Program-made: the position numbers and the translations under genes
Source of the DNA: Lachnospiraceae bacterium
Lineage (GTDB): Bacteria; Bacillota; Clostridia; Lachnospirales; Lachnospiraceae
Reading direction: 5' to 3'
Assembly: GCA_016290905.1 (NCBI GenBank)
Contig: JAEEVO010000007.1
Coordinates: forward strand, 1 to 62,111
DNA: 62,111 bases
In this document: piece by piece, positions 2,681 through 21,546 of the stretch
Position numbering within the stretch: the stretch's first letter is position 1
Layout of the letters: every line of letters starts with the position of its first letter
The notes under the pieces: generated by a model
The model's input: the letters and a program-made list of their open reading frames with translations, nothing else
Told to the model about the DNA's origin: nothing
The model's database searches: none

Positions 2681-3994
2681 TTATCCAACTTCAATCAATG
2701 TAGAAGTCTTCTGTTGCAAAACATTTCCACTACTGTCCCTTACTGTTACCGTGACATTTTTCATCTTGCTCTTCTTTCCGGTTATCCCGGTTCCAAACGT
2801 ATCAAGCAGTGTGCATCCAACCGGAGGAGTCGTGTTCAGATTTGTATATACTTTAAGATTCGCGCCAGATGGTTCAGTAGAATCCTGCCCTTTGAAATCT
2901 ACCTTGAATCCCCAGTTCTTTAATGAGTTTCCATTTTCGCAAAGCGCATAAACAGAAACTAAACCGTCAACACTCTTTTCTATTGTAATGAAATCATTTC
3001 CTTCTCCAAGCTGTACATTTTCACCTTTGTTCTTTAATTGCTTAAAGGTAAGTATATAATTCGGTTTTAAAGTATCATACGCTTTTATCTGGTCCTGCTG
3101 AGTAGGGTCCAGAGAATTCGGTACCTCACTGATTTCCTTAAACACTCTCTTTTCATCTACAGTCCAGTTAGTACTATCCTTAACAGAATACTCTACCCGT
3201 TTTTCCACGGAAATCTTCTCTTTTGCCTCTTCGCCTTCACCAACGGTCACTGTTCTTAAGGTAAGTACCGTATTCCTTACCAGCCACTTATCAGCCTTCG
3301 CCACCAGAGTATCGACAGGATTTGCGCCATCATAAGACAATGCCGGGTTCAGCTCCTTGTCTTTAATGAGCTGTTTCACTATCCATTCAATATTATCCTC
3401 AGAATAATTAACAAACACTACTTTCTCTAAACCTCCGGCCTGAGGATACCCTGAAAAGTCATTCTGAATATCAAGCGGATTCTCAGCATTTCCCTCATCA
3501 AACTCAACAGTAGCATTAAACACTTTACCGGTACCGGAAATTATATTGTTTATAGTATAACTCTTCTTTGCTACATTCTCATTAATAGTAGCATCGGTAC
3601 CAAATAAATCGGAAATTTTCTCCGAAATGGCAATACTGCTACCGCTTCCGGACGACCCTCCGCTTCCGGAAGACCCTCCACTTCCGGATAACTCTCCGCT
3701 TCCGGATAGTTCTCCGCTTCCGGACAATGAGCCACTGCCTGAAGAGTTGTGAGAATTTTTGTACAAAAGCGCAAGACCTTGTGTTCCATAAGATTTTGCT
3801 ACTTCCATTACATTCGAGGCTACTTTTTCAGCATACAACTTAGTCTCATTCTGTTTATTCACATTCAAAGCCGTATTCAGCCCTATCATCAGTGGAACAA
3901 AAGCTATCCCCACTATAAGGACGCTGACTATGACCTCTATAAGGGTGGAACCTTTCGAGTCTACAAAAAAACCTTTATGCTCATTCCTATTCAT
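2681..3994 (-). CDS. PilV-like minor prepilin with a Ser-Gly repeat stalk
   Basis: The N-terminus has a prepilin cleavage motif, DSKG followed by STLIEVIVSVLIVGIAF, with Glu at +5; the leader of about 15 residues ends at Gly15. Residues 84-120 are a run of six-residue Gly-Ser repeats of the type GSGELS or GSGGSS, which probably form a flexible linker between the pilin helix and a distal domain of about 310 residues that I do not recognise. The total of 437 residues is long for PilV. An AAAGGAG site precedes the ATG by about 10 bases. The gene lies between pilO and the PilX-like gene, downstream of a structured leader at 4010-4135. Confidence 0.75.
   Translation of the reverse strand: MNRNEHKGFFVDSKGSTLIEVIVSVLIVGIAFVPLMIGLNTALNVNKQNETKLYAEKVASNVMEVAKSYGTQGLALLYKNSHNSSGSGSLSGSGELSGSGELSGSGGSSGSGGSSGSGSSIAISEKISDLFGTDATINENVAKKSYTINNIISGTGKVFNATVEFDEGNAENPLDIQNDFSGYPQAGGLEKVVFVNYSEDNIEWIVKQLIKDKELNPALSYDGANPVDTLVAKADKWLVRNTVLTLRTVTVGEGEEAKEKISVEKRVEYSVKDSTNWTVDEKRVFKEISEVPNSLDPTQQDQIKAYDTLKPNYILTFKQLKNKGENVQLGEGNDFITIEKSVDGLVSVYALCENGNSLKNWGFKVDFKGQDSTEPSGANLKVYTNLNTTPPVGCTLLDTFGTGITGKKSKMKNVTVTVRDSSGNVLQQKTSTLIEVG
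3635..3745 (-). repeat. 18-bp tandem repeats encoding a Gly-Ser linker
   Basis: About six imperfect copies of an 18-base unit (six codons, GSGxxS) lie in frame inside the PilV-like gene. Because the unit is a multiple of three, copy-number changes by slippage would alter linker length without breaking the frame. Confidence 0.8.
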
Positions 3995-4153: not shown

Positions 4154-4867
4154 TTATTCCTCAGTCAATGTCGGAATTATTGGCTGTCCGTTCTCATCAA
4201 GCTCAGGTTCTTCCTCCGGAACATATTCGGGTGCCTTGAAAATATTTTCGTTTCCAATTTCAATATCTTCAAGAACCGGAGGCTCGTACTTATGATTCTC
4301 ATCAGATACACCGTACAAGTTCACCGTCATAGATGTTGAAATCAGGCCGGTCTCAGAATTATACTTCGAACTGAAGTTCTCTATATTCATTCTCTCATAA
4401 TGTGAATTCGAATAATATGAGTTTATGAAATCCACGATCTTCTTAAGTGCTGTATATCCGCTCGTTATGCTGATGGACATACCTGACTTATAAACCTTTA
4501 TTTCCGGCGATGCGCTTTCATAAATAACTCTGTTGTCCTGGAATGCTATGCTTGAAATCGAACATCCTGTCATCTGGCATAACTTAACTACAGTCATAAT
4601 AGTTTTTTCAGGTGTGTTTCCAGGACCGTACAGTGAAAGCACCGTATCGATGATGTCCTTTGAGCTCTCGATGCCCTGTTCATATTCAGCTTTCTTCTCG
4701 TTTTTTGCATTCAGATCATTAAGTCTTGTCTGAAGTGAATTGATCTGGTTCTGTACTTTTTTTGTTTCATCCTGATCAGCAGAATAAAAGAATTTCCACG
4801 AACCTGCTACAAGGAGGAGTGCTATGAGTACCGAACCGACAAGTACATATTTTCCATTTACTTTCAT
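4154..4867 (-). CDS. pilO: PilO-like type IV pilus alignment protein
   Basis: The 237-residue protein has a short cytoplasmic N-terminus, one membrane segment (about residues 8-28), a coiled coil (about 30-75) and a ferredoxin-like-sized domain, which is the PilO/GspM layout. PilO pairs with PilN in the inner-membrane alignment complex linking the motor to the pilus. The ATG overlaps the stop of the PilM-PilN gene by four bases (ATGA) and AAGGAGGG precedes it, indicating translational coupling. An acidic tail of about 35 residues rich in Glu and Pro follows the domain. Assignment rests on topology and position, because PilO sequences diverge strongly. Confidence 0.75.
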   Translation of the reverse strand: MKVNGKYVLVGSVLIALLLVAGSWKFFYSADQDETKKVQNQINSLQTRLNDLNAKNEKKAEYEQGIESSKDIIDTVLSLYGPGNTPEKTIMTVVKLCQMTGCSISSIAFQDNRVIYESASPEIKVYKSGMSISITSGYTALKKIVDFINSYYSNSHYERMNIENFSSKYNSETGLISTSMTVNLYGVSDENHKYEPPVLEDIEIGNENIFKAPEYVPEEEPELDENGQPIIPTLTEE

Positions 4868-6885
4868 GGCTGCATTCCCTCCTTCTGTGCTGCTTCAATT
4901 TCATCCAGTATTCTTAAATACTCAATGCCGTCAAGAATATCTACAACATCGTCCTTATTCAGATCACCAATAAAGGCTAAATCAAGATTTTCAAGTCTTG
5001 CGTACAAGGTTCTGTCATCTTCATTAACCTCGCCATCCTTGTTTATGTCATCATCGTCATTAACAATTCCGTCGTTATTGATATCTTTTTCAATAAGTTC
5101 CCAGGTCTTTGCCCTTACCTTGTTCTCCGCCTCAATGATATCACGTATATCATACAAATTGTCAGAGTTTACATCACCGTATACATCCAGCTTGTCGACA
5201 ATGCCGTCACCGTTTTTATCATCGTTCTCATCAACAGTGCCATCCTCGTTTACATCTCTGTCATAGTATACCTGATACTTACATGTTACGGTAAAGCTCA
5301 CTATAGTCTGTCCTGTGCTTTCCGAATGTCCCTCTTTAATTGAGGTAACATATACAGAACTGAAGTAAGGTACCTGTTGCAGCTGTAAGAGCAGCTTAGC
5401 GGCTTCTTCTTTTGAAGCAACTACCAGGTTTAATACAAGGTTGTTATTATCCGAAGATAATCCGGATACTATCATGGAGCTAACAGCCTTTTCCTCCAAC
5501 TGTTTCAAAACATCATTCCACTGCTCGTTTTTCCTGTAAGTCCCATTATGGAAATCGATAACAGCGTTCTTGGAAACTATTGCAGCATTATAATCAGCTT
5601 CCAATTGTTCTATACCTGATGCTTCAAGATCCTTTATCAATGTTTCTACTTTTTCTTTTTCATTTACTTTCTTGTTGTACTGTCCTTTACCAAGGAAGAA
5701 AAGCACAGCTGCGCCCGCAAGACCTGCTACTAAAACAAGTGCTCCAAGGAATACGAGTTTATTCGCTTTGCTTTCTTTTGATATTGTTACAAATGTAAGC
5801 GAACCTTCAGCCGCACCAAGACATGCGATAAGCTCTGAAGTGTTTATGCCCGCCTTACTTACAGAAGAACTGATTTTTACGTCAGGGAGTTGTTCAAGTG
5901 TTACTATCTCAACTCCTGAGAATTCGTTCTCCAAGAAACTCTTGATGCCTTTTATCTTTGCGCCGCATCCGCCGATGTAGATGGTATTAAGTTCTGCGTT
6001 TTGATTTTTGGAGTGGTAATACTCCATGACACGTGAGAGGTTACCAAGGAGCTGCCTCATACCTTCGGTTACCTGCTCTTTAGCTACATGCAGACGTTCT
6101 GCAGCCTCCGAATCCGGCTCGCTAAGTCTGATTGCGGCAAAGCTAGGAAACATAAGTTCCTCTTCAGTCAGCTTTTTTAAAGCTTCTGTTCTGGTAATGC
6201 CCTGACCCATATCTTCACTGTCATAATATCCGCTCTGGATAAGTCGGTCACAGAGCACATATGCACCAAAGTTTATATTTCTCTGAATGGCATACTTTCT
6301 CTTTTCAAGAACGGTGAATAATGTACTGCGTTCATTTATCTGCAGATACATATCCATCTCTTTATGAGCCTCGTTAGAAAGCCACTGATAGATAGCGTTT
6401 CCGTTATAGTCTATGCTGACAATACGAAGTCCTGCAAGTGAAGCAAACGACTGGTAATTCATTATAAGCTTCTGAGGTACAGCATATACGATAATACGTA
6501 TCTGCTTAGCATCCTTATTTCTGTCAAGAACCCTGTAAACAAGATTATGCCCCGACGTATCCATAGGGAAATACTCGCTCCTCTGATTCTCAACAAAGTC
6601 ATTGATCTGATCATCCTTCATTTCAGGAATAGCTACTTCCCTGCTGATGACCTTGTTTGTTGCAAGTGCGATAACAACATTTTTGGTACCGAAGCCGTGA
6701 GTCTGTCTCTGGAACTCCTTTGTGAACGTCTCTACGCCTTCTATAACGCCGTCACTAACGGTCTTGTCCGGGGTGGGAAAAACCACCGCTTTGTGGACTA
6801 CCGGATCTTTTTTACCATAGTCTACTTCGACCACTCTGGTAACAATATCCGTAACTTCAATACTTAGTACTTTTGTTACAGCCAT
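4864..6885 (-). CDS. PilM-PilN fusion with C-terminal dockerin-like calcium-binding repeats
   Basis: I start at the ATG at 6885 (MAVTKVLSIEV), which has GGAGGAG six bases upstream; the TTG seven codons earlier lies before that site. Residues 1-370 are an actin-like PilM domain. Residues about 376-398 form one membrane helix. Residues about 400-540 have the coiled-coil and small-domain layout of PilN. Residues 543-673 contain six acidic loops of the form DxNxDGxVxxxD (for example DVNEDGTVDEND and DINKDGEVNEDD), typical of dockerin or EF-hand calcium sites. By topology these lie outside the membrane. PilM and PilN are normally separate proteins, so the fusion plus calcium module is unusual. It probably couples the pilus motor to the cell wall or senses extracellular calcium. 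Confidence 0.85.
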   Translation of the reverse strand: MAVTKVLSIEVTDIVTRVVEVDYGKKDPVVHKAVVFPTPDKTVSDGVIEGVETFTKEFQRQTHGFGTKNVVIALATNKVISREVAIPEMKDDQINDFVENQRSEYFPMDTSGHNLVYRVLDRNKDAKQIRIIVYAVPQKLIMNYQSFASLAGLRIVSIDYNGNAIYQWLSNEAHKEMDMYLQINERSTLFTVLEKRKYAIQRNINFGAYVLCDRLIQSGYYDSEDMGQGITRTEALKKLTEEELMFPSFAAIRLSEPDSEAAERLHVAKEQVTEGMRQLLGNLSRVMEYYHSKNQNAELNTIYIGGCGAKIKGIKSFLENEFSGVEIVTLEQLPDVKISSSVSKAGINTSELIACLGAAEGSLTFVTISKESKANKLVFLGALVLVAGLAGAAVLFFLGKGQYNKKVNEKEKVETLIKDLEASGIEQLEADYNAAIVSKNAVIDFHNGTYRKNEQWNDVLKQLEEKAVSSMIVSGLSSDNNNLVLNLVVASKEEAAKLLLQLQQVPYFSSVYVTSIKEGHSESTGQTIVSFTVTCKYQVYYDRDVNEDGTVDENDDKNGDGIVDKLDVYGDVNSDNLYDIRDIIEAENKVRAKTWELIEKDINNDGIVNDDDDINKDGEVNEDDRTLYARLENLDLAFIGDLNKDDVVDILDGIEYLRILDEIEAAQKEGMQP

Positions 6886-7248: not shown

Positions 7249-8187
7249 TTAGAAAAAGCTTCCGTACCACTTTACTATTGCATCGCCAAACCACAGTGCC
7301 GTTACGATACCGGCCGATAGATACGGTCCCATCGCGAGCTGTTTGCCTTCACCGGATACCTTCATGCGTATGATATGGATGATACTTCCGTACAGACATC
7401 CTGCTATAAGAGCGACGATTGCCAGTTTCCATCCAAGAAACAGTCCTGCAACAGCCATCAGCTTTACATCTCCGCCACCCATGGCTCTTCCCTTAGAGGC
7501 ATAATAAATGATAGCTAACCGTATACTTACAGCAAAGAAGCCTATCAGAAGCTCCAAAAAACGACCACGTGCATACAGCAATTCGAAGAATCCGGGATTC
7601 TTTCCTATAGCATCACAATAAAACTTAAAATATCTGATATCCTGGTACCAATATGAAACGAATTTTATGATTCCCAACACAAGTATAACAATATTGGCGC
7701 TTAACGGTATCTCAAAGGTCCTCCAGTCGATGACTGATATTACTATCAGTACCGAACATAAGATACATGCAAGAATTATAGCTTCAATATCATATACGGA
7801 TGCAAACCAGTCTTCTATAATTATGTCCGCGTTTGTTGTAGGATCAACTCCGACTTTTATATATATACTTATATTACTTAAAATATCTGCTGTAAAACCC
7901 GAGAATACGAAGCACAATACAGCCAATGCCCCGTTTATAAACTCAACTATCGGGTATTGTTTGCTGATCTTCGCTTTACAGTAACGGCATTTTCCGCCAA
8001 GAAAAAGGTAACTGAATAAAGGAAACAGATCATACCATGCAAGCTGATGCCCGCAGCTCATACAATGTGAGCGTTTCTTAACAATCGTTTCTTTAAGCGG
8101 TATCCTCAAGATACAGACATTTAAAAAGCTGCCAATGATAATACCGTATATAAATATAATTGTATATATAAGTATATTAACAAGCAT
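7249..8187 (-). CDS. pilD: type IV prepilin peptidase / N-methyltransferase
   Basis: The 312-residue membrane protein has the N-terminal cytoplasmic zinc-binding cysteines C42-x2-C45 and C67-x2-C70 and the two catalytic aspartates of the aspartic prepilin peptidase family: D154 in SVIDWRTFEIP and D240 in GGGDVKLM. It removes the leader from the prepilins encoded around it and methylates the new N-terminus at the membrane. It starts 19 bases after the upstream pilin gene, with GAGG before the ATG, so it is co-transcribed with that pilin. It should process all prepilins of the locus. It lies within the usual size range (about 250-310). Confidence 0.92.
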   Translation of the reverse strand: MLVNILIYTIIFIYGIIIGSFLNVCILRIPLKETIVKKRSHCMSCGHQLAWYDLFPLFSYLFLGGKCRYCKAKISKQYPIVEFINGALAVLCFVFSGFTADILSNISIYIKVGVDPTTNADIIIEDWFASVYDIEAIILACILCSVLIVISVIDWRTFEIPLSANIVILVLGIIKFVSYWYQDIRYFKFYCDAIGKNPGFFELLYARGRFLELLIGFFAVSIRLAIIYYASKGRAMGGGDVKLMAVAGLFLGWKLAIVALIAGCLYGSIIHIIRMKVSGEGKQLAMGPYLSAGIVTALWFGDAIVKWYGSFF

Positions 8188-8206: not shown

Positions 8207-8680
8207 TCAAGATCCACTTAACTCTCTACTCGAAAAACCGGAAAGAGTGCTGAAAGTATGTCCATCAATATATACATAAACTCTTAATTCTATCTGAGGT
8301 GCATTATCCGGAGTACTCTTTAACTCAATGGAGTTTTTAAACTCTTCCCAATCATTTACACCATAAACCTGAGCGACTCTGTCCCAGAAAATACCGCTCT
8401 CATCAGGTATTGCCTGTACATGAGTACCCGATGAATCTTTAGTTATATATATCTGGTGATCACCACTTTCTACTTCAGAAAAAACGTCTTCATTTCCTAT
8501 GGCAAATTGGCAGGCTTTCTCTATATTTGTTCTGATTTCAAGGTCCGAAGATATACGTGAATTCTCGACCCACTTTACTACTTGTGGAGCAAGTGCAACT
8601 GCCACTATCGCCATGATAAGAACTACAACTATAAGCTCAACTAATGAAAAACCCTTGTTGTCCCTGCGTATGCCTTCCAT
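8207..8680 (-). CDS. type IV pilin, PulG/PilA-like (second copy)
   Basis: I choose the ATG at 8680 (MEGIRRDNKGFSLVEL), which has GGGGGGAAGAAAGG upstream; an upstream in-frame ATG would give an atypically long hydrophobic leader. The cleavage site is NKG followed by FSLVELIVVVLIMAIV. The helix is nearly identical to that of the pilin at 9608, so the two are paralogues with divergent C-terminal domains. The mature protein is about 148 residues. It could be an alternative major pilin or an abundant minor one. It is followed directly by pilD. Confidence 0.85.
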   Translation of the reverse strand: MEGIRRDNKGFSLVELIVVVLIMAIVAVALAPQVVKWVENSRISSDLEIRTNIEKACQFAIGNEDVFSEVESGDHQIYITKDSSGTHVQAIPDESGIFWDRVAQVYGVNDWEEFKNSIELKSTPDNAPQIELRVYVYIDGHTFSTLSGFSSRELSGS

Positions 8681-8856
8681 TCCTTTCTTCCCCCCGTCTA
8701 ATCTATACACTAAAATTTTTAATAAAATATTAATCATTATAAAGCATATCATACTTTTTCGACGATTGCAAGAGAAAATTCATAATTTATTCATAAATTG
8801 TTCAATATAGTATTCTTCTATCATTTTGTTATGAAATTGAATTTAGCGAAAAATAT

Positions 8857-9607: not shown

Positions 9608-10042
9608 TTACGAGAAATCCTTAGAAGGAGCACTTGTTCTATCAACCTTTATACCATCACCAGATGAAAAACTTAAAGTAATTTTGAATGTTTTATCTTT
9701 CCAGTCACTTGATGTAACCTTAATTGCATCATTGCTATCGTTCAACTCAGGTAATGTACGCTTAACATTTGTTGCAAGAGCACCACTAAGACCACCAACA
9801 CCGGATGCTGAGAATGTAACTACGATATTTCCACTCTTAACCTGTGAAACTACTGCTTCATCAGTACTTGCTGTGTTACAAGCGGTAACTAATGAATTAT
9901 AAGACTCGATATCGTTTGACTTTCTTGAGTTCTCAACCCATCTCATAACCTGAGGTGCAAGAGCTACAGCGATGATTGCCATGATAAGAACTACGACGAT
10001 AAGTTCTACCAGTGAAAAACCTTTGTTGTTCATTTTTTTCAT
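9608..10042 (-). CDS. pilA: type IV major-type pilin
   Basis: The 144-residue prepilin begins MKKMNNKGFSLVEL, with a short basic leader, cleavage after Gly8, Phe at +1 and Glu at +5, and a single long helix ending APQVMRWVENSR. The mature pilin is about 136 residues and small, as expected for a major subunit. The C-terminal domain has no cysteine pair, so no disulfide-closed D-region is expected. The AAAGGAG site lies nine bases from the ATG. It follows pilC by 95 bases and ends at a strong hairpin. That this is the main subunit is inferred from size and its place after pilC. Confidence 0.85.
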   Translation of the reverse strand: MKKMNNKGFSLVELIVVVLIMAIIAVALAPQVMRWVENSRKSNDIESYNSLVTACNTASTDEAVVSQVKSGNIVVTFSASGVGGLSGALATNVKRTLPELNDSNDAIKVTSSDWKDKTFKITLSFSSGDGIKVDRTSAPSKDFS

Positions 10043-10137: not shown

Positions 10138-11352
10138 TTATAAGTTTCCGATATCTCCGTACATATTGATCATAGGAGAGTACATTGCAAGTACCATCCA
10201 TCCTACGATACCACCAAGCACTACTATGATGATAGGCTGCATCATTTCTGACATAGACTGGGTTGCAAGCTCCGCTTCTTCCTCGTAGTACTCTGCAACC
10301 TTATCAAGCATCTGCTCAATATTACCGGTTTCTTCTCCAATAGCTATCATATTAGGAACCAGTGTAGGATAAACCTTGGCACGTCTGATAGGTACCGAAA
10401 GGTTGATACCTTGCTCAACATCCTGTTTCGCTTTAATAAGAGCATTCCTAAACAAAACATTCTTCATGGCTTTAGCACATATCTCAAGTGACTGAGATAT
10501 ACCCATACCTGATGAAACGAGTGTGCTCATTGTACGAGCAAATGATGCCGACTGCGTTTTTATATTTACCGAACCAATAATTGGTATCTTTATGGCTATA
10601 GTACCAAAGACTTCTTTACCCTTGTCAGTCTTGCCAAACATCTTTAGACCTATAATCGTACATACAACTATGATGATAAGTAACCACCACTTGTTCATAA
10701 GGAAATCTGCCAAGGCCATAACCGCCTTCGTAGCACCCGGAAGTTCAGAACCCATGTCTGCAAACATCTCTGCGAACTTAGGAACTACCGCAACAGACAT
10801 TATAATCATAACACCCAAAGCGACTACAATAACCGCTATAGGATAGATCATAGCCTTTTTTATAATACCAGCCAGCTTTGCACTCTTTTCAAACTGAGTA
10901 CCCATACGGGAAACAGCCTCTTCCAAGCTGCCTGAAACCTCACCGGCTTCAACCATATTTACGAACATTTCCGGAAATATCTTCGGATGTTTCGCCATAG
11001 ATACTGCAAGAGTTTCACCTTGTTGAACCGACTCAGAAGTCTTTCTCAATGCCTTAACCAAGGTTTTGTTCTGTGTCTGGTCTGCCAGCATATTCAGTGC
11101 CTCTACAACGGTAACTCCGGCATTTAATATTGAAGTAAACTGTCTACAGAAAACAGAAAGATCTCTCTTTGTAACCTTCTTTTCTCCACCAATGTTAAGG
11201 TCTTTAGAGAAAATACTCTGCGCCTTTACTGATATAGGCGTGAGTCCATTCGTCTGAAGCATCAGTTTTGCGGCTTCAACATTTTTCGCTTCAATATTGC
11301 CTTTTGTCTGATCACCCATCTTGGTGACCGCTACATAACTGTATGTTGCCAC
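10138..11352 (-). CDS. pilC: type IV pilus inner-membrane platform protein
   Basis: The 404-residue protein has two T2SSF repeats (about residues 70-195 and 270-395), each ending in membrane helices, with three or four helices in all: the PilC/GspF layout. The platform couples the PilB and PilT ATPases to pilin polymerisation. The start is GTG at 11352, with GGAGAG six bases upstream. It has its own promoter (11376-11404) giving a very short leader, so pilC and pilA can be transcribed without pilB and pilT. The conserved GEETGNIEQML stretch is present near residue 340. Confidence 0.93.
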   Translation of the reverse strand: MATYSYVAVTKMGDQTKGNIEAKNVEAAKLMLQTNGLTPISVKAQSIFSKDLNIGGEKKVTKRDLSVFCRQFTSILNAGVTVVEALNMLADQTQNKTLVKALRKTSESVQQGETLAVSMAKHPKIFPEMFVNMVEAGEVSGSLEEAVSRMGTQFEKSAKLAGIIKKAMIYPIAVIVVALGVMIIMSVAVVPKFAEMFADMGSELPGATKAVMALADFLMNKWWLLIIIVVCTIIGLKMFGKTDKGKEVFGTIAIKIPIIGSVNIKTQSASFARTMSTLVSSGMGISQSLEICAKAMKNVLFRNALIKAKQDVEQGINLSVPIRRAKVYPTLVPNMIAIGEETGNIEQMLDKVAEYYEEEAELATQSMSEMMQPIIIVVLGGIVGWMVLAMYSPMINMYGDIGNL

Positions 11353-11375: not shown

Positions 11376-11404
11376 AATATAACACATGATGTACAAGATG
11401 TCAA
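11376..11404 (-). promoter_or_regulatory. promoter upstream of pilC
   Basis: TTGACA (11399-11404) and TATATT (11376-11381) on the minus strand are spaced by 17 bases. The start of transcription would be about 17 bases before the pilC GTG. Confidence 0.75.
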
Positions 11405-11450
11405 GTGTTTTATTCAAAAAATATTCACATTTTGTTCATTTTTAACAAAA

Positions 11451-12512
11451 TTAGAATGATAACCTATTCGCCAGCGTTCCTGCGTCCTGAGCGAAGCTCA
11501 GTGCAGTCTCTCTGTCTATTATGTGCTGGTTGTAGATGTCATAGATATCGTCATCCAGGGTTTTCATTCCGAGCTTTCTGGAAGTCTGCATCGTACCTGC
11601 TATCTGGAAAGTCTTGTTTTCACGGATCAGGTTTCTTATAGCGGGAGTTGCGAGCATGACCTCAAATGCTGCCTTTCGTCCGTTACCGCCTATGACAGGA
11701 AGCAGTGCCTGTGAGATAACGCCTTCAAGAACCATTGCGAGCTGTGAACGTATCTGTGTCTGCTGATAAGGCGGGAATACGTCGATGATACGGTCGATGG
11801 TAGCTGCCGCACCGATGGTATGCAGGGTACTGAATACCAGGTGGCCCGTTTCTGCTGCAGTAATGGCTGTCGCTATGGTATCAAGGTCACGCATCTCACC
11901 TACGAGGATAACGTCGGGGTCTTCACGAAGTGCAGATGTAAGCGCCTGTGAGAAGCTCTTTGTATCAAGTCCTACTTCACGCTGGTTAACGATAGAACGC
12001 TTGTGAGGGTGAAGGTACTCGATAGGATCCTCCAGAGTTATTACATGGAAGGGTGACCTGTCATTTATCAGGTTGATAAGTGATGCCAGTGTTGTTGACT
12101 TACCCGATCCTGTAGGTCCGGTAACGAGCACCAGTCCTCTCTTTTTGAACGTAAGGTCTACAACCGCATTCGGTATTCCGAGCTGTCCGGGTGAAGGTAT
12201 GTTCATACCGATCAGACGAAGTACAGCTGCGATAGTTCCTCGCTGATGGAATACGTTTGCTCTGTATCGTCCTTCTCCCATGATCGCATAAGAGAAGTCG
12301 AGCTCGCCCTGCTCTTCAAATCTCTGTACCAGCTGCGGAGGTATGATGGAATATCCGAGTTCCGCAGTATCGGCAGGTGTAAGTATCGAACAGCCTTCGA
12401 TATCGACTAGATCACCGAAAACTCTTACCTTAGGCGGTACGCCTACTGAAAGGTGTAAGTCCGACGCGTGCATCTGGTTTGCTATGATAAGCATTTCATT
12501 GATTGAGAGCAT
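11451..12512 (-). CDS. pilT: type IV pilus retraction ATPase
   Basis: The 353-residue hexameric ATPase has Walker A GPTGSGKST (residues 132-140), an Asp box, Walker B around EDPDVILVGEMRD (197-209), the His box ETGHLVFSTLHT (221-232) and the PilT-specific AIRNLIRE motif (291-298), which separates it from assembly ATPases. It powers depolymerisation of pili and hence twitching motility. It starts 26 bases after pilB with AAAGGAG before the ATG, in the same transcript. The presence of PilT shows that this is a retractable pilus, not only a competence pseudopilus. Confidence 0.95.
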   Translation of the reverse strand: MLSINEMLIIANQMHASDLHLSVGVPPKVRVFGDLVDIEGCSILTPADTAELGYSIIPPQLVQRFEEQGELDFSYAIMGEGRYRANVFHQRGTIAAVLRLIGMNIPSPGQLGIPNAVVDLTFKKRGLVLVTGPTGSGKSTTLASLINLINDRSPFHVITLEDPIEYLHPHKRSIVNQREVGLDTKSFSQALTSALREDPDVILVGEMRDLDTIATAITAAETGHLVFSTLHTIGAAATIDRIIDVFPPYQQTQIRSQLAMVLEGVISQALLPVIGGNGRKAAFEVMLATPAIRNLIRENKTFQIAGTMQTSRKLGMKTLDDDIYDIYNQHIIDRETALSFAQDAGTLANRLSF

Positions 12513-12538
12513 AGGTTGGTCTCCTTTGTATTTGATTT

Positions 12539-14281
12539 TTATGATGTAACCGCATCAACATCATCAACATCCTCGCCTGCGTATACGATACGCTTCAGCT
12601 CGTTGATGGATGTAACGCCGTTCTTGACATGCTTAGCGCATGCCATCTGCAGGGTATACATACCGTCTGCAAGTGCTGCATTTTCTATCTGTTCGGTGGT
12701 GCCCTTTGCAGCAATAATACTCTTTATACGCTGTGATACCGGCATGAGCTCATATACGCCGATACGTCCGCGGTATCCGTTGTAGCTGCACTGAGGACAG
12801 CCCTTGGGCTCCCAAATCTTTACTTCATCCTCGCCTTCCATGCCGAGCAGTCTCTTCTCACGGTCGTTGGCAAGTCTTTCCTGACGGCAGGCTGTACAAA
12901 GACGTCTTACCAGACGCTGTGCGATAACGCCCACTACAGAGTCGGCGATGAGGTAATACTCAAGTCCCATATCCGCAAGACGGGTGATGGATGCTGCGGA
13001 TGAGTTGGTATGCAGTGTGGATACGACCAAGTGACCTGTGATAGATGCCGTAACGGCTATACTCGCGGTCTCCTGGTCACGGATCTCACCGATCATGATG
13101 ATGTCCGGGTCCTGACGTAAGATAGAACGAAGGGCCGATGCGAAGGTAAGACCTGCTTTTACATTGGTCTGTACCTGATTGATGCCCTCGATATTAGCTT
13201 CGACAGGGTCTTCTACCGTGATGATGTTAACATCTTCTTTGTTCAGCTCTGAAAGAGCGGTATACAGTGTAGTTGATTTACCTGATCCGGTAGGTCCCGT
13301 AACAAGGATGATACCGTTCGGGTTCGAGAATATCTTATCAAATGTTCCAAGCTCGGCCTCGTCAAATCCGAGGTTCCTCTTGTCACGTGAAAGTGCTTTC
13401 TTCTGGGTAAGACGCATAACCGTCTTTTCGCCGTATACGGTAGGAAGCATGGAAACACGGATATCGTACTCTACCTTGTCTACGATCGATGTGATACGAC
13501 CGTCCTGAGGCTTACGCTTTTCTGAAATATCCATGCCGCCGATGATCTTGATACGTGTATTTACAGCAGAAAGCATGTTTATCTTATAGTCACCGGAGTT
13601 CTTCAGCACACCGTCTATACGGTAGCGGACTCTGATATGCTTTTCAAACGGCTCGATATGAATATCGGATGCACGCTGACGTGCTGCCTGTTCGATGATA
13701 CGGTTAACGAGCACAACAACGGGTGAGTTCTCGACTGCGGCGTTCGCCTCGGTCATGTCCTCGTCCTTGTACTGCTCTTCTTCTGCCGCACGCTCGGCTG
13801 CGAACATTTCTGCCACGGCCTGGTTTTCCAAGTTACCGAAGTACTTGTCGATAGCGGCGAGGATATCGGTCGAAGTTGCTATACACGGCGATATCTGCAT
13901 ACCCGTGAGGAGCGTCATGTCGTCGATGACCTTTATGTCCATCGGGTCTGCCATGGCTACCTTCAGGTATCTGGAGTCGTACTCGTCAAAGTCGAACGGG
14001 ATCACAAGGCTCTTCTTTAATACTGTATGATCCTTTATAAGGTTAAGGATGTTCTCCTTTATCGCAACTCGGTTCGGGTCTACCAGTTCAAGTCCCAGCT
14101 GTCTCGAAAGTGCTGTGGCTATCTGCCTTTCGGTGGTGATACCGAGCTCGACGAGTGTTTCACCGAGCTTGTGTTTTGTTTCCTGCTGTCTTGTCAGTGC
14201 CTGGTTCAGCTGGTCAAGGGTGATGACACCCTCGTCCATCAGTACATCACCGAGCCTGACCTTTTTATTCATGAAAGCCAT
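12539..14281 (-). CDS. pilB: type IV pilus assembly ATPase
   Basis: The 580-residue protein has an N-terminal MshEN/GspE_N region (about 1-150), the N2 domain and the motor domain with Walker A GPTGSGKST (329-337), Walker B DPDIIMIGEIRD (391-402), a His box (TGHLVVSTLHTN) and the zinc-binding tetracysteine C462-x2-C465 and C495-x2-C498 found in PilB/GspE. It drives pilin polymerisation. MshEN domains in this family can bind c-di-GMP, relevant because the locus also contains an EAL protein; binding is not shown here. The ribosome site GGAGACC precedes the ATG. A long hairpin separates it from the EH-like gene upstream. Confidence 0.95.
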   Translation of the reverse strand: MAFMNKKVRLGDVLMDEGVITLDQLNQALTRQQETKHKLGETLVELGITTERQIATALSRQLGLELVDPNRVAIKENILNLIKDHTVLKKSLVIPFDFDEYDSRYLKVAMADPMDIKVIDDMTLLTGMQISPCIATSTDILAAIDKYFGNLENQAVAEMFAAERAAEEEQYKDEDMTEANAAVENSPVVVLVNRIIEQAARQRASDIHIEPFEKHIRVRYRIDGVLKNSGDYKINMLSAVNTRIKIIGGMDISEKRKPQDGRITSIVDKVEYDIRVSMLPTVYGEKTVMRLTQKKALSRDKRNLGFDEAELGTFDKIFSNPNGIILVTGPTGSGKSTTLYTALSELNKEDVNIITVEDPVEANIEGINQVQTNVKAGLTFASALRSILRQDPDIIMIGEIRDQETASIAVTASITGHLVVSTLHTNSSAASITRLADMGLEYYLIADSVVGVIAQRLVRRLCTACRQERLANDREKRLLGMEGEDEVKIWEPKGCPQCSYNGYRGRIGVYELMPVSQRIKSIIAAKGTTEQIENAALADGMYTLQMACAKHVKNGVTSINELKRIVYAGEDVDDVDAVTS

Positions 14282-14310
14282 TTTTTAAGGTCTCCTAAAA
14301 TACTAACGGT

Positions 14311-14374
14311 ACTCAGAATTTTTTTAACGCGGCGCTTAGGCAAAGCCTAAGCTATTTCGCTAAAAATTCCGAGT
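14311..14374 (-). promoter_or_regulatory. long nested hairpin between the EH-like gene and pilB
   Basis: A 13-bp outer stem with one mismatch (14311-14323 with 14362-14374) encloses a perfect 8-bp stem with a 3-base loop (14334-14341 with 14345-14352). It fills the gap between the two genes. There is no clean T-run, so it may be an mRNA processing or stability element rather than a terminator. Confidence 0.55.
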
Positions 14375-14379
14375 TGTAA

Positions 14380-15606
14380 TTATTGATATTTAGATATATA
14401 GTCCCTGACAGAATACTGCCAGTCTCCCATGTGTACACGTCTCCAGTTCATGCCGGCGTTCATGTCGGTCTTGCCGGAGAGGTATCCGCTGAGATCTTTT
14501 TCGGTCTCGAAGTCGATGATGTTGGGAGAGACGCTTTCCTTATAATATCCCATTTCGTAGAAGAAAGCCGTATTTGTTTCCACTATCTCGATGACTACGA
14601 ACTTTCCGAAGTCCAGGATAACGCTTCCGCAGGGATGTACCTGTACCGAGATCTTCGAGGAGTAGTTCATCCAGAAGTTTGCAACGTCAGTCTTGCCAAG
14701 CATCCTTGTGATAAGGAACTGATTAAGCCATACTGCATATCTTTGCTGATACTGAGGAGCAAGATCCTCCATGACGGATATGTATTTCTCGCTTCCCTTT
14801 GCACCGGTAACCGGCTCGAAGAGCTCTACAAGGCTCGCATACTTACGGAGCTGTACGGTATCCAGGTTCTTGACCATATTGATGAGAAGCTTTTTCTTCA
14901 TATCATCATCGAAGTCCTTTGCCATCTCATAAAGGTCTTCTTCCTTGAACTTCCTGTACTCCTCGGCGTTACATATGACGATGAAGTAAACCATGCACTC
15001 ATTATAGAGAGCGGTGTCCTTGACAACTCCGACCATCTCCAGTGCCTGAGCATAATTACCGTTCTGACCGGTTTTGGCTGTTGCAAGCTTGTTGAAGTAT
15101 GCGGCAATGCTTCCTTCAGCGAACTGATGCATCAGTTCTTTAGCGTCCTGTCCGCTCTGACGGCGCAGGGAATCACAGAATGTATCGTCTTTTTCAAGGC
15201 GTTTGTAGAGAGGCTTTAATGCAGGTGACTTGAAATTGTCCTGGCAGCCCCTGTATATATCCATTACGACATCGTCAGGCATCTTTTCGGAGCTTTCCGT
15301 CAGGATGCTGATATATTTGTTTACATGGTCTTCCACCTTCTGAGGATCGGCCTGTCCTTCCTGAGCAGCCTTCATCTGTGAAAACATATACGGTATGAGG
15401 AGATTCTTTTCCTCGGCGCTTAAACAATATGCTATGCCCTGCATCTCTGATAGCGGCTTTTCACCGATCTTTTCAAAGATACGTGCGCATTCACCCAGTC
15501 CCGCCGATGCCTCCTCAGCTTTTCTTTTTATCCTGTCCTCGCGCTGCTGCCGGATATTGTCGGCCGCCGCACCGAGAATGGAGGGCTCGTACATAGTATA
15601 TTCCAT
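14380..15606 (-). CDS. protein with an EH_signature-like C-terminal domain
   Basis: The protein has 408 residues from the ATG at 15606, which has AAGGA nine bases upstream; an ATG three codons earlier is too close to that site. The first 300 residues are helical and unfamiliar. The last 100 residues resemble the EH_signature domain (as in Zorya ZorC) as I remember it: an FW-x-x-Y start, VVIEIVETNTAFFYE with the key Glu near 340, and RRVHMGDWQ with the key His near 392. This is recognition by eye, not a search result. It follows the coiled-coil gene and precedes pilB, so a role in pilus control, wall passage or defence is possible. Confidence 0.5.
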   Translation of the reverse strand: MEYTMYEPSILGAAADNIRQQREDRIKRKAEEASAGLGECARIFEKIGEKPLSEMQGIAYCLSAEEKNLLIPYMFSQMKAAQEGQADPQKVEDHVNKYISILTESSEKMPDDVVMDIYRGCQDNFKSPALKPLYKRLEKDDTFCDSLRRQSGQDAKELMHQFAEGSIAAYFNKLATAKTGQNGNYAQALEMVGVVKDTALYNECMVYFIVICNAEEYRKFKEEDLYEMAKDFDDDMKKKLLINMVKNLDTVQLRKYASLVELFEPVTGAKGSEKYISVMEDLAPQYQQRYAVWLNQFLITRMLGKTDVANFWMNYSSKISVQVHPCGSVILDFGKFVVIEIVETNTAFFYEMGYYKESVSPNIIDFETEKDLSGYLSGKTDMNAGMNWRRVHMGDWQYSVRDYISKYQ

Positions 15607-15679
15607 ATTTATCATTCCTTACTATGTGAATTTTATTTTTGTGCACCTTAACCCTAGGATCTGAAGGGCTTTCCCGTTA

Positions 15680-16669
15680 TCAGGTCAGTCCTCTCAGTGC
15701 CTTAGGCAGCCTTGCGGCAGCTTCGTTGATCTCCTCTGTGGTCTTGCCGAGTGTCGTAGCTACGTCTGCCAGTTGCTTGTCGAGGAGTGCGAATATGTCG
15801 TTTATGGTCTTTGCCATCATCTCTTCGAACGAAGGCAGGTTTACCTTCATGTCTGCGGATACTTCGTTCAGTGCTACCGTGTAGCTTGTCATGGACTTCG
15901 TGTACTTTGTCATCTGAGCAAGGAGTTCCTCTGAGTTCTTGTTGATCTCCTCGTCTGCCTTTACATAGCTTGTAGCCCAGCTTGACTGATGTCCTTCGAG
16001 TATCTTCTTCTCTTCTGCCAGATGATCTCCCAGACGGTTGAGAACGGTTCCGAGATCCTGCAGGTTGGTTGCCTGTGTTTCGGAGATGTTCTTTAAGCTC
16101 TTTGAAATGTCGTCGTATACGTTCTTTAAGCTGTTGATGGTATCTGTCGTAAGTGAGTTCATACCGTCCGATACACCTACGGTGATATTCTTCATGGCAT
16201 CCGATGCGTCCTTAATGGACCTCTGCATCTCAACGGAAGCTAAGGAAACGGTCGAGCGGAGATCTTCCGTAGCCGTCTTCATGTCTTCTAATATAGCCTT
16301 CTGAGCATTAGATATCTCCTTCATCTCAGAAAGTGTGCTGGAGAAACCGTCTACCAACTGTTTTACAGCATCGGTGCTTTCCTTCTGCAGTCTTGCTCCT
16401 TCCACTGCCGAACGTGAAAGATCCTGGAATGTGCCCTGTGTGGACTCCTCAAGTCTGTCCATGAAGGCCTGTGTAAGTCTTCCGATAGCATCTGCCTGAA
16501 GATCCTTTGATACTTCAAGCTGTTTCTTTACATTTGCGGCAAATACTGTAAATACGGGTGTCAGTGCATCCGTGATGGCACGTGTAACTGTCTCTGATAT
16601 GCCTGCTACTACCTGCTCTGCCAATTGTTGATTGTTGTTTCCGCTTTTTGCGTCGTTAAAAATAGCCAT
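15680..16669 (-). CDS. long coiled-coil protein of unknown function
   Basis: The 329-residue protein is almost entirely helical, rich in Ala, Ser, Lys, Asp and Glu, with heptad-like spacing over most of its length and no signal peptide or membrane segment. The repeated helical pattern is like the tail of ZorA-type motor proteins or the signalling part of chemoreceptors, without the HAMP or MCP hairpin motif. GGAGGAACGTT precedes the ATG. It lies immediately before the EH_signature-like gene (73 bases), and the two probably form a pair. The role is unknown; a cytoplasmic scaffold for the pilus motor is one possibility. Confidence 0.6.
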   Translation of the reverse strand: MAIFNDAKSGNNNQQLAEQVVAGISETVTRAITDALTPVFTVFAANVKKQLEVSKDLQADAIGRLTQAFMDRLEESTQGTFQDLSRSAVEGARLQKESTDAVKQLVDGFSSTLSEMKEISNAQKAILEDMKTATEDLRSTVSLASVEMQRSIKDASDAMKNITVGVSDGMNSLTTDTINSLKNVYDDISKSLKNISETQATNLQDLGTVLNRLGDHLAEEKKILEGHQSSWATSYVKADEEINKNSEELLAQMTKYTKSMTSYTVALNEVSADMKVNLPSFEEMMAKTINDIFALLDKQLADVATTLGKTTEEINEAAARLPKALRGLT

Positions 16670-16793: not shown

Positions 16794-19700
16794 TTACTTC
16801 TCGAAAACCAACCCGTTTTCAAGCTTTTTCGGCATTATCATAATGCCATGCTCATCCTTTACGGTCACGTCCAGATCGTGTATCGTCGTGAAGCTTCCGT
16901 AACGCAAAGTGAACGGTCCCTTCTGAGTGCCCAGTGACCTCGGGATACCTGCAAGTATCTCTACCTTTACGTCTCCTCCGGATACCGTTGTCTCTGCGAT
17001 GTCCTCGCCGCTTCCGATACCGTTGATCTGCGTACCCTCAGAGTAGATGGCGATGTTTGCATCCTCAAACTTAAGATCTGCCTTGTTCATGAGCGAGCCT
17101 ATGCCCATACCGCAATAGCTGTGGATCACTACCGATATTTCATTGCTCAGCAGATCGACCTTTGAGTAGTTGTAGATAGAGCCTATACCGACAGTCTTTT
17201 CACCGTCTCCCATAATCTCGAGACGTCCTCTCGAAATTATCTCCGCCTTTCCGTTTATGGAGCCGAGAGCGATCGAATCGTTTCCGTCACTCTTGAGCCT
17301 GCAGTTTACGTTTCTACCTATATATATGTCCGTATCTCCGACATCACTTCCTATGGCTACCGCATGTATTGCCTTGGCCGCTATGTCAAAGTTTCCGTTT
17401 ATGAGCCTTATCCTTGATCCGTCGCATCTGCCTCCGCCTATGCCGACCACCTTGTCGCCGTTTGCCACGATCTTTATGGTACCCGTCATGTCAAATGAAA
17501 GATCTCCGTGCGGCTCGTTGCAGTTCGATCCTATACCGATACTCAGATTCCTGCTTGTGATGATGTGCAGGTTTCCGGGACCGCTGCATGTAAGTCTCGA
17601 ACCTGCCGGAACCGAAATCCCGTCCTTGTTCAAAGTACATTCACCGTGGATAGCAAGCGCTGTCTCAGAGTTCCTTCCGAGCTGGATGGTCGTCTCAAGT
17701 TCGCCCCTTAAGTTTACGTTTTCAAGGATCAGCTCGGTTTTCCTGTTATCGGCAGTCCTTATTATCATGTCTATGACATTATCCGGTTCTCCGACAATCT
17801 TTACTCTTCCGCCCGGGACAAATACCACGGTGTATTTCTGAAGTACTATATCCAGAAGGTTTACCGTCTCTCCTGCTTTGGCGTTATAGATCATGTTGTC
17901 ATTGTCGAACTTGGCAGCCTTTATGCTCTCATTCAGTATCTCGCTGCGGATGTTCTGCGGTATCTGCTGTATAAGCCGCGCATCGGGGTGTGCCGTATAA
18001 TAGCCCTGAATGTAGTCAACCCCGTATCCTATCACCGTCTTCAGTTCCTCTGAAGTCTCAACGCCCTCAGCAAGCACCTTTATCCGGTTAAGTGCCGCAA
18101 ACTCGATCGTATTCTTTACGAACATCTGTTTGTTGCTGTCATCCTGTATGTTGCTGATCAGATATCTGTCAATCTTTATATATTGTGGCGCATAACGGAT
18201 CAGATTTACGATGTTCGAATGTCCTGTTCCGTAATCATCTACGGCTACACCCGGTTTCTTGCCGTTCATGGTTGATGCTCTGAGTTTCTCCAGTTCATCA
18301 TCGGTAACCGTATTGGACTCCGTTACTTCAAAGACAAATGCATCCAGGTATTTTCCGTACCTGTTTATCAGCTCGGCCCTGTCCGTATCGTTAAGGAAAT
18401 ATCCGGGGATCGTGTTTATGAACAGCTTTCTGTCTCCGAATTCTTCGATATGTTCCTCATAGAACTGCATGACATTGAACAGTGTAGCCTTTTCTATATC
18501 ATAGAGCCTGCCTGCATTCTTTGCGATATCAAGCACATCAAGCGGTGTCATCGATATACCGCCTCCGGTCCTCATAAGAGCCTCGTAAGCGAATATCTTT
18601 CCGGTACCCGCATCAACTATCGGCTGGAAATGATATCTGAACAGATTTCTGTCGACCAGCAGTTCAAATGTGGTGAAGTATTCCCGGTCAAAGGTCTTGT
18701 CCCTTATCACAGGCATCTTGCCCTGCCGCAGTCTTCTTAGGTACATGTCGCTCATGGCCATTCGTACAAGGCTTTCAAGAGTCGAATCCCAGCCTTCCTC
18801 AACGTAAGCCGTTCCGTAATTAACCTCAAGGAAATATTCCTTTGTGCTCTTACGGTTGTGTTCTTCCATGATCTTGTCGAACTTTAGGAAGATCCCCTCC
18901 ATGACGGCTGTTTCATCGTTTACGACCTCACTGCCGTTTTGCGCTGCGACAGGTTCGACACTGTCTATGGCAACAAACTCGCCCTCGGCGAACTGGCTTA
19001 AGAAGCTAGTTTTCGGACATGCCGCTCTCACCTTGTCAACAAGGAACCTTACGCTTTCCTCTATCTCATTCAATCCGTAGTTTTCGTATATGTACGTATA
19101 TCTCGGCATCGAGAATACGCTTATGCTCAAGCCCTTCTTATGGTTCTCAATATCCTCGGAGAATTCCTCAAACCATCGTGTAAGTCCTTTCAGGTTCGGA
19201 AGTCCGGTCATGGAGCTTACAAATGTTGAATTCTCGATGTTGTAGAGCATCTGCTTCTGCTTCTTCTGGTTTGCAAGGAATCGGCATACCAGGTTCAGGC
19301 CTACACACAACAGCTTCGTAGTGCTTCGTATATCGCTTACCTGCCTTGTTTTCACTGCGTAATACCCGCATATCGAATCCCCGACAAACACCGGGTTTAA
19401 CACAAGCATGGTTCCGTCTATGCTGCTCTTAAGATAATCGATGGTAATATCCTTTACCTTTACCGTCGGTTTTTCTTCATATTCTATAGGCACGGAATCT
19501 TTACGGTTTTTATCTTCCTGCTCTATCACCGTAAGGCTTTCGTTCCCAAGATTGGTTATCTCGAAATTATCGATATCGAAGCCGGATTCCAGAAGCCTTG
19601 TAAATACATAGAAGGTTGCACCCTCGTCCAGCCTTTTTGAGATGTTGTCCAGGATGGAGTCAATGTCCGTCAGCTCCAGCATCTTGTCGATCCATGCGAG

Positions 19701-21377: not shown

Positions 21378-21546
21378 TAGACTTCCCCCTGTTGCATTAT
21401 TGCCGTCCCCCGGCATCTTCATCAACATCTAAAGACAATCCTTCTCACTACAGTATAGCAGATACACGCCGATTTTACCACTTAAATTTTTTATGTCTTT
21501 TACGTTATATTTTTGATATCGAGCTACTATTCACAGCAGGATTAAA

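Follow-up and report, generated by a model that had tools for sequence, protein, structure and literature searches.

In type IVa pilus machines, PilM is cytoplasmic and PilN lies outside the membrane, and in C. difficile both are fused in one protein, as described in the available sections of a review (PMC6916266). These sections name the crossing of the thick monoderm wall by type IV pili as a question for the future and speculate that a monoderm base protein, PilO of S. sanguinis, anchors the machine to the wall. Calcium dependence of a type IVa pilus has been shown for Myxococcus PilY1, which acts in priming and at the pilus tip (excerpts of PMC8833165). For calcium-site mutants of the PilY1 family, later studies found no major effect on piliation, and effects vary by species, according to the parts available of another paper (PMC4471445).

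Here we describe a PilM–PilN fusion protein encoded on a 62,111-nucleotide stretch of DNA from a Lachnospiraceae bacterium (contig JAEEVO010000007.1, the window hereafter), which ends in a tail of six calcium-type loops. The fusion is already known, the calcium-loop tail is the new part: we did not find such a tail on PilMN in the literature searched, i.e., mostly open-access papers in partial lists of best matches. The papers compared, in the parts available, included PMC3244431, PMC4471445, PMC6958937, PMC6916266, PMC6143707, PMC7057214, PMC2914790 and PMC8833165.

The window encodes a PilM–PilN fusion with a calcium-loop tail

The original prediction had placed the gene correctly at 4864..6885; it lies on the minus strand. 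The ATG start codon is at 6885, with GGAGG shortly 5′ of it, and the stop codon at 4864 shares ATGA with the start of the downstream gene. The features of the gene, all on the minus strand, are as follows.

4864..6885, minus strand: pilMN gene, PilM–TM–PilN fusion with calcium-loop tail, 673 amino acids
5851..6885, minus strand: PilM actin-like domain, residues 1–345 (approximate boundary), PF11104
5692..5757, minus strand: predicted membrane helix, residues ~377–398, a hydrophobic stretch between PilM and PilN
5278..5511, minus strand: PilN domain, residues 459–536, PF05137
4867..5271, minus strand: calcium-loop tail, residues 539–673
5221..5256, minus strand: loop A, DVNEDGTVDEND (544–555), core also matched by the codon pattern
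5185..5220, minus strand: loop B, DKNGDGIVDKLD (556–567), abuts loop A, core also matched by the codon pattern
5140..5175, minus strand: loop C, DVNSDNLYDIRD (571–582), followed by helix 580–600
5050..5085, minus strand: loop D, DINNDGIVNDDD (601–612)
5014..5049, minus strand: loop E, DINKDGEVNEDD (613–624), abuts loop D, followed by helix 622–632
4930..4965, minus strand: loop F, DLNKDDVVDILD (641–652), followed by helix 650–670, absent in two of six tails

PilM, a membrane helix and PilN had been predicted in one reading frame, and this is what we found: in the window protein both Pfam domains scored over their cut-offs, i.e., 65.2 bits for PilM_2 (PF11104, cut-off 27) and 28.3 bits for PilN (PF05137, cut-off 22.8), with the helix between them, as in a type IVa PilMN fusion. 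The PilM domain matched the PilM chains 3jc8 (E 2.5e-10) and 2ych (E 1.5e-6) of the PDB, which come from Myxococcus and Thermus, respectively. At the site of the membrane helix, the full-length model shows a helix of residues 370–397 at low confidence. Five relatives from the same genus share the tail; in these, PilM was over its cut-off, and PilN was below it (n = 1) or unlisted at E ≤ 0.01 (n = 4). The identical in-frame join is present in all six genomes, and a frameshift or assembly error as origin of the fusion was therefore rejected.

Residues 544–652 contain six 12-residue calcium-type loops, whose successive starts lie 12, 15, 30, 12 and 28 residues apart. The prediction of six DxNxDGxVxxxD loops was right in number, and the glycine is present in four of them, but the third (DVNSDNLYDIRD) and the sixth (DLNKDDVVDILD) lack it. 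When the tail was shuffled 20,000 times, six loops occurred in 0/20,000 sequences (mean 0.016 with the strict and 0.097 with the loose pattern). The loop core, searched as a codon pattern, occurred at two places in the 2.94 Mb genome, both in pilMN, and at none in the control; the pattern undercounts, since it caught only two of the six loops (A and B).

An AlphaFold2 model of the tail alone (mean pLDDT 85, pTM 0.55) has a helix behind each of loops C, E and F, and the full-length model, otherwise poor, shows the same tail helices. Foldseek found no fold significantly similar to the tail structure (best E 3.7), and NCBIfam has no family for the window tail or for the tail of one relative. About six residues separate the last PilN strand from the start of the tail, with no linker, and in all six tailed proteins the tail follows this strand almost directly. 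We therefore favour reading it as a rigid continuation of PilN that points outward. Among the untailed relatives inspected, the ends are variable and often acidic.

pilMN belongs to a cluster of type IVa pilus genes

The gene is clustered with those for PilB, PilC, PilT, PilD and pilins, and by position only with one for PilO.

4154..4867, minus strand: PilO by position and architecture (TM and coiled coil), directly 3′ of pilMN
7249..8187, minus strand: pilD, prepilin peptidase, PF06750 and PF01478 over cut-off
8207..8752, minus strand: pilin-like, N_methyl over cut-off
9608..10042, minus strand: pilin-like, N_methyl over cut-off
10138..11352, minus strand: pilC, platform protein, PF00482 with 217 bits, NCBIfam PilC models below their own cut-offs
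11451..12512, minus strand: pilT, retraction ATPase, TIGR01420 with 451 bits, over cut-off
12539..14281, minus strand: pilB, extension ATPase with c-di-GMP motif domain, PF00437, PF05157 and NF053729 over cut-off

The cluster is of type IVa. The product of 4154..4867 has no Pfam PilO match, and for PilB, TIGR02538 was the best match, yet below its cut-off. Two larger genes lie beyond the PilO-like gene, the first being weakly pilin-like (below cut-off); the weakly pilin-like protein at 2681–3994 contains a long run of Ser-Gly repeats in the early part of its sequence. Gene order is kept by the five tailed relatives in the stretches compared (the contig of one, G315, starts at a pilin), and G304 has two extra genes between the pilins. 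All five also have a large, probably secreted protein after the minor pilins (L082, L083, L084, L085 and L086). In L085 it comprises 1484 amino acids (11386–15840), with no Pfam match over cut-off; in L082, L083, L084 and L086 its gene is at the end of the locus, and the window contig stops before the counterpart.

Near pilB, a 1544-residue protein (16794–21428) combines a periplasmic-binding-type sensor domain with EAL; GGDEF was below its cut-off. This EAL protein and the c-di-GMP motif domain of PilB suggest that c-di-GMP may control the pilus. Two genes lie between pilB and the EAL gene: the product of 14380–15615 (411 amino acids) has no Pfam match and has relatives beside pilB in G306, G311 and G316, and that of 15680–16669 (329 amino acids) gave weak coiled-coil-type matches only.

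The tail loops are conserved and dockerin-like

Identity of the tailed relatives to the window protein is 78% (G306), 72% (G315), 70% (G304), 65% (G308) and 51% (G311). Across the span of loops A–E in the six sequences, 21 of 25 ligand columns are invariant, compared with 9 of 56 other columns (Fisher p 7e-9, a guide only, because the six sequences are related). Mean pN was 0.14 in PilM, 0.37 in the PilN region, 0.25 in loops A–E and 0.44 in the F region, with synonymous sites near saturation (pS 0.71–0.84). The F region is thus more diverged than PilN, and loop F itself is missing in G308 and G311. By these measures, the tail loops appear to be under selection. Calcium binding of the tail is predicted from the ligand pattern and its conservation.

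Domain searches with PilM, PilN, dockerin and EF-hand profiles had been proposed as a check. Besides the two pilus domains, over cut-off in the window protein, they gave Dockerin_1 (PF00404) as best Pfam family for six of six isolated tails; four exceeded the cut-off of 22.9 bits, but the window tail (21.1 bits) and that of G315 (18.9 bits) did not. The Pfam EF-hand had no match in the window tail and reached at best 11.4 bits in the six tails (cut-off 25.9). Whole-protein Pfam scans of all six tailed proteins showed no dockerin or EF-hand domain. The loops are hence dockerin-like, and by its score the window copy is not a member of Dockerin_1.

A type I dockerin consists of two F-hands, i.e., loop plus helix, in about 60 residues. 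In a search of PDB sequences with a profile of the six tails (best E 2.1e-4), the alignment covered loops C through D. The nine best matches were named as dockerin domains, endoglucanases and cellulosomal enzymes, with a carbohydrate-binding protein as the first; presumably all nine chains are dockerins. Thus C–helix–D aligns to dockerin-kind chains, and A–B and D–E abut without a helix. In hhalign, the tails matched three ordinary dockerins of the genus, those caught by a regular expression among 26 dockerin match rows, with a probability of 55%. Here, loops C and E stood opposite the dockerin loops, which disagrees with the C/D pairing from the PDB profile search.

The distribution of the tail fits a single gain

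Homologues of pilMN at E ≤ 1e-10 occur in 84/299 genomes of the family and 78/392 of the order. Many of these frames have about 510–650 amino acids, as expected of fusions; certain families of the order have frames of about 310–420 amino acids instead. A scan of the phylum gave a match in 40/398 genomes, and among the matches listed outside the order most had 308–445 amino acids, as expected of unfused PilM, with two longer ones. That PilM and PilN are always separate, as the original prediction assumed, is contradicted by these common fused frames and by the C. difficile fusion (PMC6916266, available sections). For the same two reasons we dropped the fusion as a novelty; what stands of the layout claimed as undescribed is the tail, found in one genus.

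Within this genus, 12 of 24 genomes have pilMN homologues, three of them only a distant PilM-like paralogue. Such a second, distant PilM-like protein is also present in the genome of the window (G000:C185:11587-12129, 511-residue frame) and has counterparts in several genomes of the genus. The tail occurs in 6/24 genomes, i.e., that of the window (G000), G306, G315, G304, G308 and G311, and among the frames inspected loop arrays were limited to these six. Accordingly, the six-tail profile hit 6/24 genomes of the genus and, in a family sample, 1/397, namely that of the window; the rows listed for this sample include only two genomes of the genus, and the match in G311 runs past its stop codon into the following stretch. 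In the family, order and phylum scans, which sampled part of the species, no match outside the genus convincingly reached the loop region. One alignment in G188 extended to residue 669 and was rejected, since it passes through a stop and the G188 frame ends without loops. Single loop-pattern matches were seen in L004 and L053.

In a tree built on PilM (56 rows), all six tailed proteins group in one clade with 100/100 support, adjoining untailed PilMN of the same genus and of G039. The script removed rows that had fewer than 250 aligned residues or were identical in sequence to another, and L001, L040, L041, L042 and L043 were excluded by hand as duplicates or distant paralogues. On the genomes sampled, the distribution fits a single gain of the tail in one genus. 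Because other PilMN proteins lack such a tail, it is accessory. Three untailed PilMN proteins (L037, L038 and L039, from G316, G303 and G314, respectively) have additional residues around position 300, in the late part of the PilM domain; in L037 this stretch is Gly/Lys/Asp-rich.

Cohesins in tailed and untailed genomes

The original prediction had suggested that the tail ties the pilus to a cohesin partner. In the window's own genome (81% complete), neither a cohesin nor a dockerin-family match was found at E ≤ 1. In the genus, cohesin was over its cut-off (24.1 bits) in 2/6 tailed genomes (G308, G315) and in 0/18 untailed ones, for which the one-sided chance is 15/276 = 0.054. G306 (97% complete) and G304 (100% complete) had no cohesin over cut-off, with matches of 20.0 and 16.1 bits, respectively; at E ≤ 1, cohesin matches occurred in 15/24 genomes, tailed or untailed, and in the E. 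coli control as well. Dockerin matches at E ≤ 0.01 were absent from G304 and numbered 12 in the untailed G302. The sensitivity of these genome searches was limited: they did not report the tails, four of which exceed the cut-off when scanned in isolation. Since G304, rated 100% complete, lacks a cohesin over cut-off, a detectable cohesin is unnecessary for retention of the tail. With no cohesin over cut-off in four of the six tailed genomes, the proposed tie is weak. A divergent cohesin partner is conceivable.

In G308 and G315, a cohesin-plus-leucine-rich-repeat protein is encoded beside a dockerin protein, of 1016 amino acids in G308 (L078, contig C48, 4711–6096 and 1469–4519) and of 964 in G315 (L079, contig C9, 4344–5525 and 1362–4256). 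These genes make up a small cohesin–dockerin system. The G315 cohesin protein was over cut-off in the genome search and had no cohesin row in the whole-protein scan. Among the matches listed for the G308 cohesin protein, only those in G308 and G315 were convincing relatives of its cohesin part, and the others covered mainly leucine-rich and linker parts. We also considered a cohesin partner within the pilus cluster and discarded it, as the large protein 3′ of the pilins in the relatives had no cohesin match (one of five scanned).

Discussion

On balance, we lean towards the view that the window encodes a monoderm type IVa PilMN with an added calcium-folded, dockerin-like module on its extracytoplasmic end, which would brace or gate the pilus base. 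PilM would form a cytoplasmic ring, one helix would span the membrane, and PilN would form a ring outside; that the tail faces the wall, as predicted originally, is supported by homology to type IVa machines, where PilN is outside. The tail would then probably be a rigid extension that surrounds the pilus exit within the wall zone. It might be exported unfolded and fold once each subunit binds five to six calcium ions; calcium outside the cell should suffice to occupy loops of this type. The folded collar could brace the machine against the wall or against neighbouring machine parts, and assembly or stability of the pilus base would become dependent on external calcium. The calcium response of the pilus suggested in the original prediction is thus conceivable.

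Alternatively, the tail might sense calcium and thereby switch the motor from extension to retraction and back, as proposed for PilY1. We consider this unlikely, even though the ligands are conserved, PilY1 offers a precedent and the tail is fixed directly to the PilN ring, which would face PilB/PilT across the membrane. Loops with full ligand sets predict tight calcium sites that would remain occupied at millimolar calcium, and a structural role therefore suits the tail better than a switch. Moreover, PilY1 is a pilus-tip and priming protein, unlike the base protein PilN (excerpts of PMC8833165), and later studies did not bear out its proposed calcium switch for piliation (parts of PMC4471445). 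If the tail were instead an acidic, mostly disordered C-terminal extension, with incidental calcium binding, it would resemble the many untailed relatives that end in acidic low-complexity stretches. This is very improbable in our view: the loops keep their ligands and their spacing in proteins 51–78% identical to that of the window, pN is lower in loops A–E than in PilN, AlphaFold2 predicts a confident fold for the tail, and none of the 20,000 shuffles produced six loops.

It also seems to us improbable, if less so than disorder, that the tail is a true dockerin which connects the pilus base to a wall or scaffold protein that carries a cohesin. Dockerin_1 as the best family of all six isolated tails, over cut-off in four, speaks for it, as do the cohesin proteins beside dockerin proteins in two tailed genomes, the bias of cohesins towards tailed genomes and the sub-cut-off matches in G306 and G304. 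However, such sub-cut-off matches are common in the genus, irrespective of tails, and extend to E. coli; four of six tailed genomes, including G304 and G306, lack a cohesin over cut-off, and convincing relatives of the G308 cohesin are confined to G308 and G315 among the matches listed. These two own separate, ordinary dockerins for their cohesins, and the untailed G302 has dockerins too. Furthermore, the loops are paired and abutting, without the inter-loop helix of the dockerin F-hand, and the tail has no long flexible linker. We therefore retain the calcium-folded module that braces or gates the pilus base as our preferred reading.

A conserved, probably wall-facing calcium-loop module on PilN is a concrete candidate part for the crossing of the monoderm wall, and it suggests a pilus base held or controlled by calcium in the cell wall. 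We offer only tentatively, as possible yet doubtful, the more specific proposal that in this gut-bacterial lineage the PilN ring is a calcium-dependent wall collar with five to six ions per subunit, which seats the machine in the cell wall and makes piliation conditional on external calcium. Such a role for a type IV pilus base protein was not found in the literature searched, as far as its available parts extend.

The tail shares the loop ligand pattern with the type I dockerin (PF00404). It differs in having five to six loops instead of two, which abut in two pairs, and in being attached to a pilus base protein instead of an enzyme. PilY1/PilC1, also a pilus protein located outside the membrane, likewise has a calcium site that resembles an EF-hand (PMC4471445, parts available), but is a beta-propeller tip protein of diderms with one described site, and the likeness is one of description only. 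S. sanguinis PilO, too, is an enlarged base-complex component for which a role in the wall has been proposed (PMC6916266, available sections); in that system PilO bears the extension, whose nature is unspecified, whereas in the window protein it is on PilN and built of calcium loops. The closest described system is PilMN of C. difficile, a fusion that is clustered in the same way with PilO, PilB, PilC, PilD and PilT; a calcium-loop tail is unmentioned in the available sections of PMC6916266 and PMC7057214, and by description it is this tail that sets the window protein apart.
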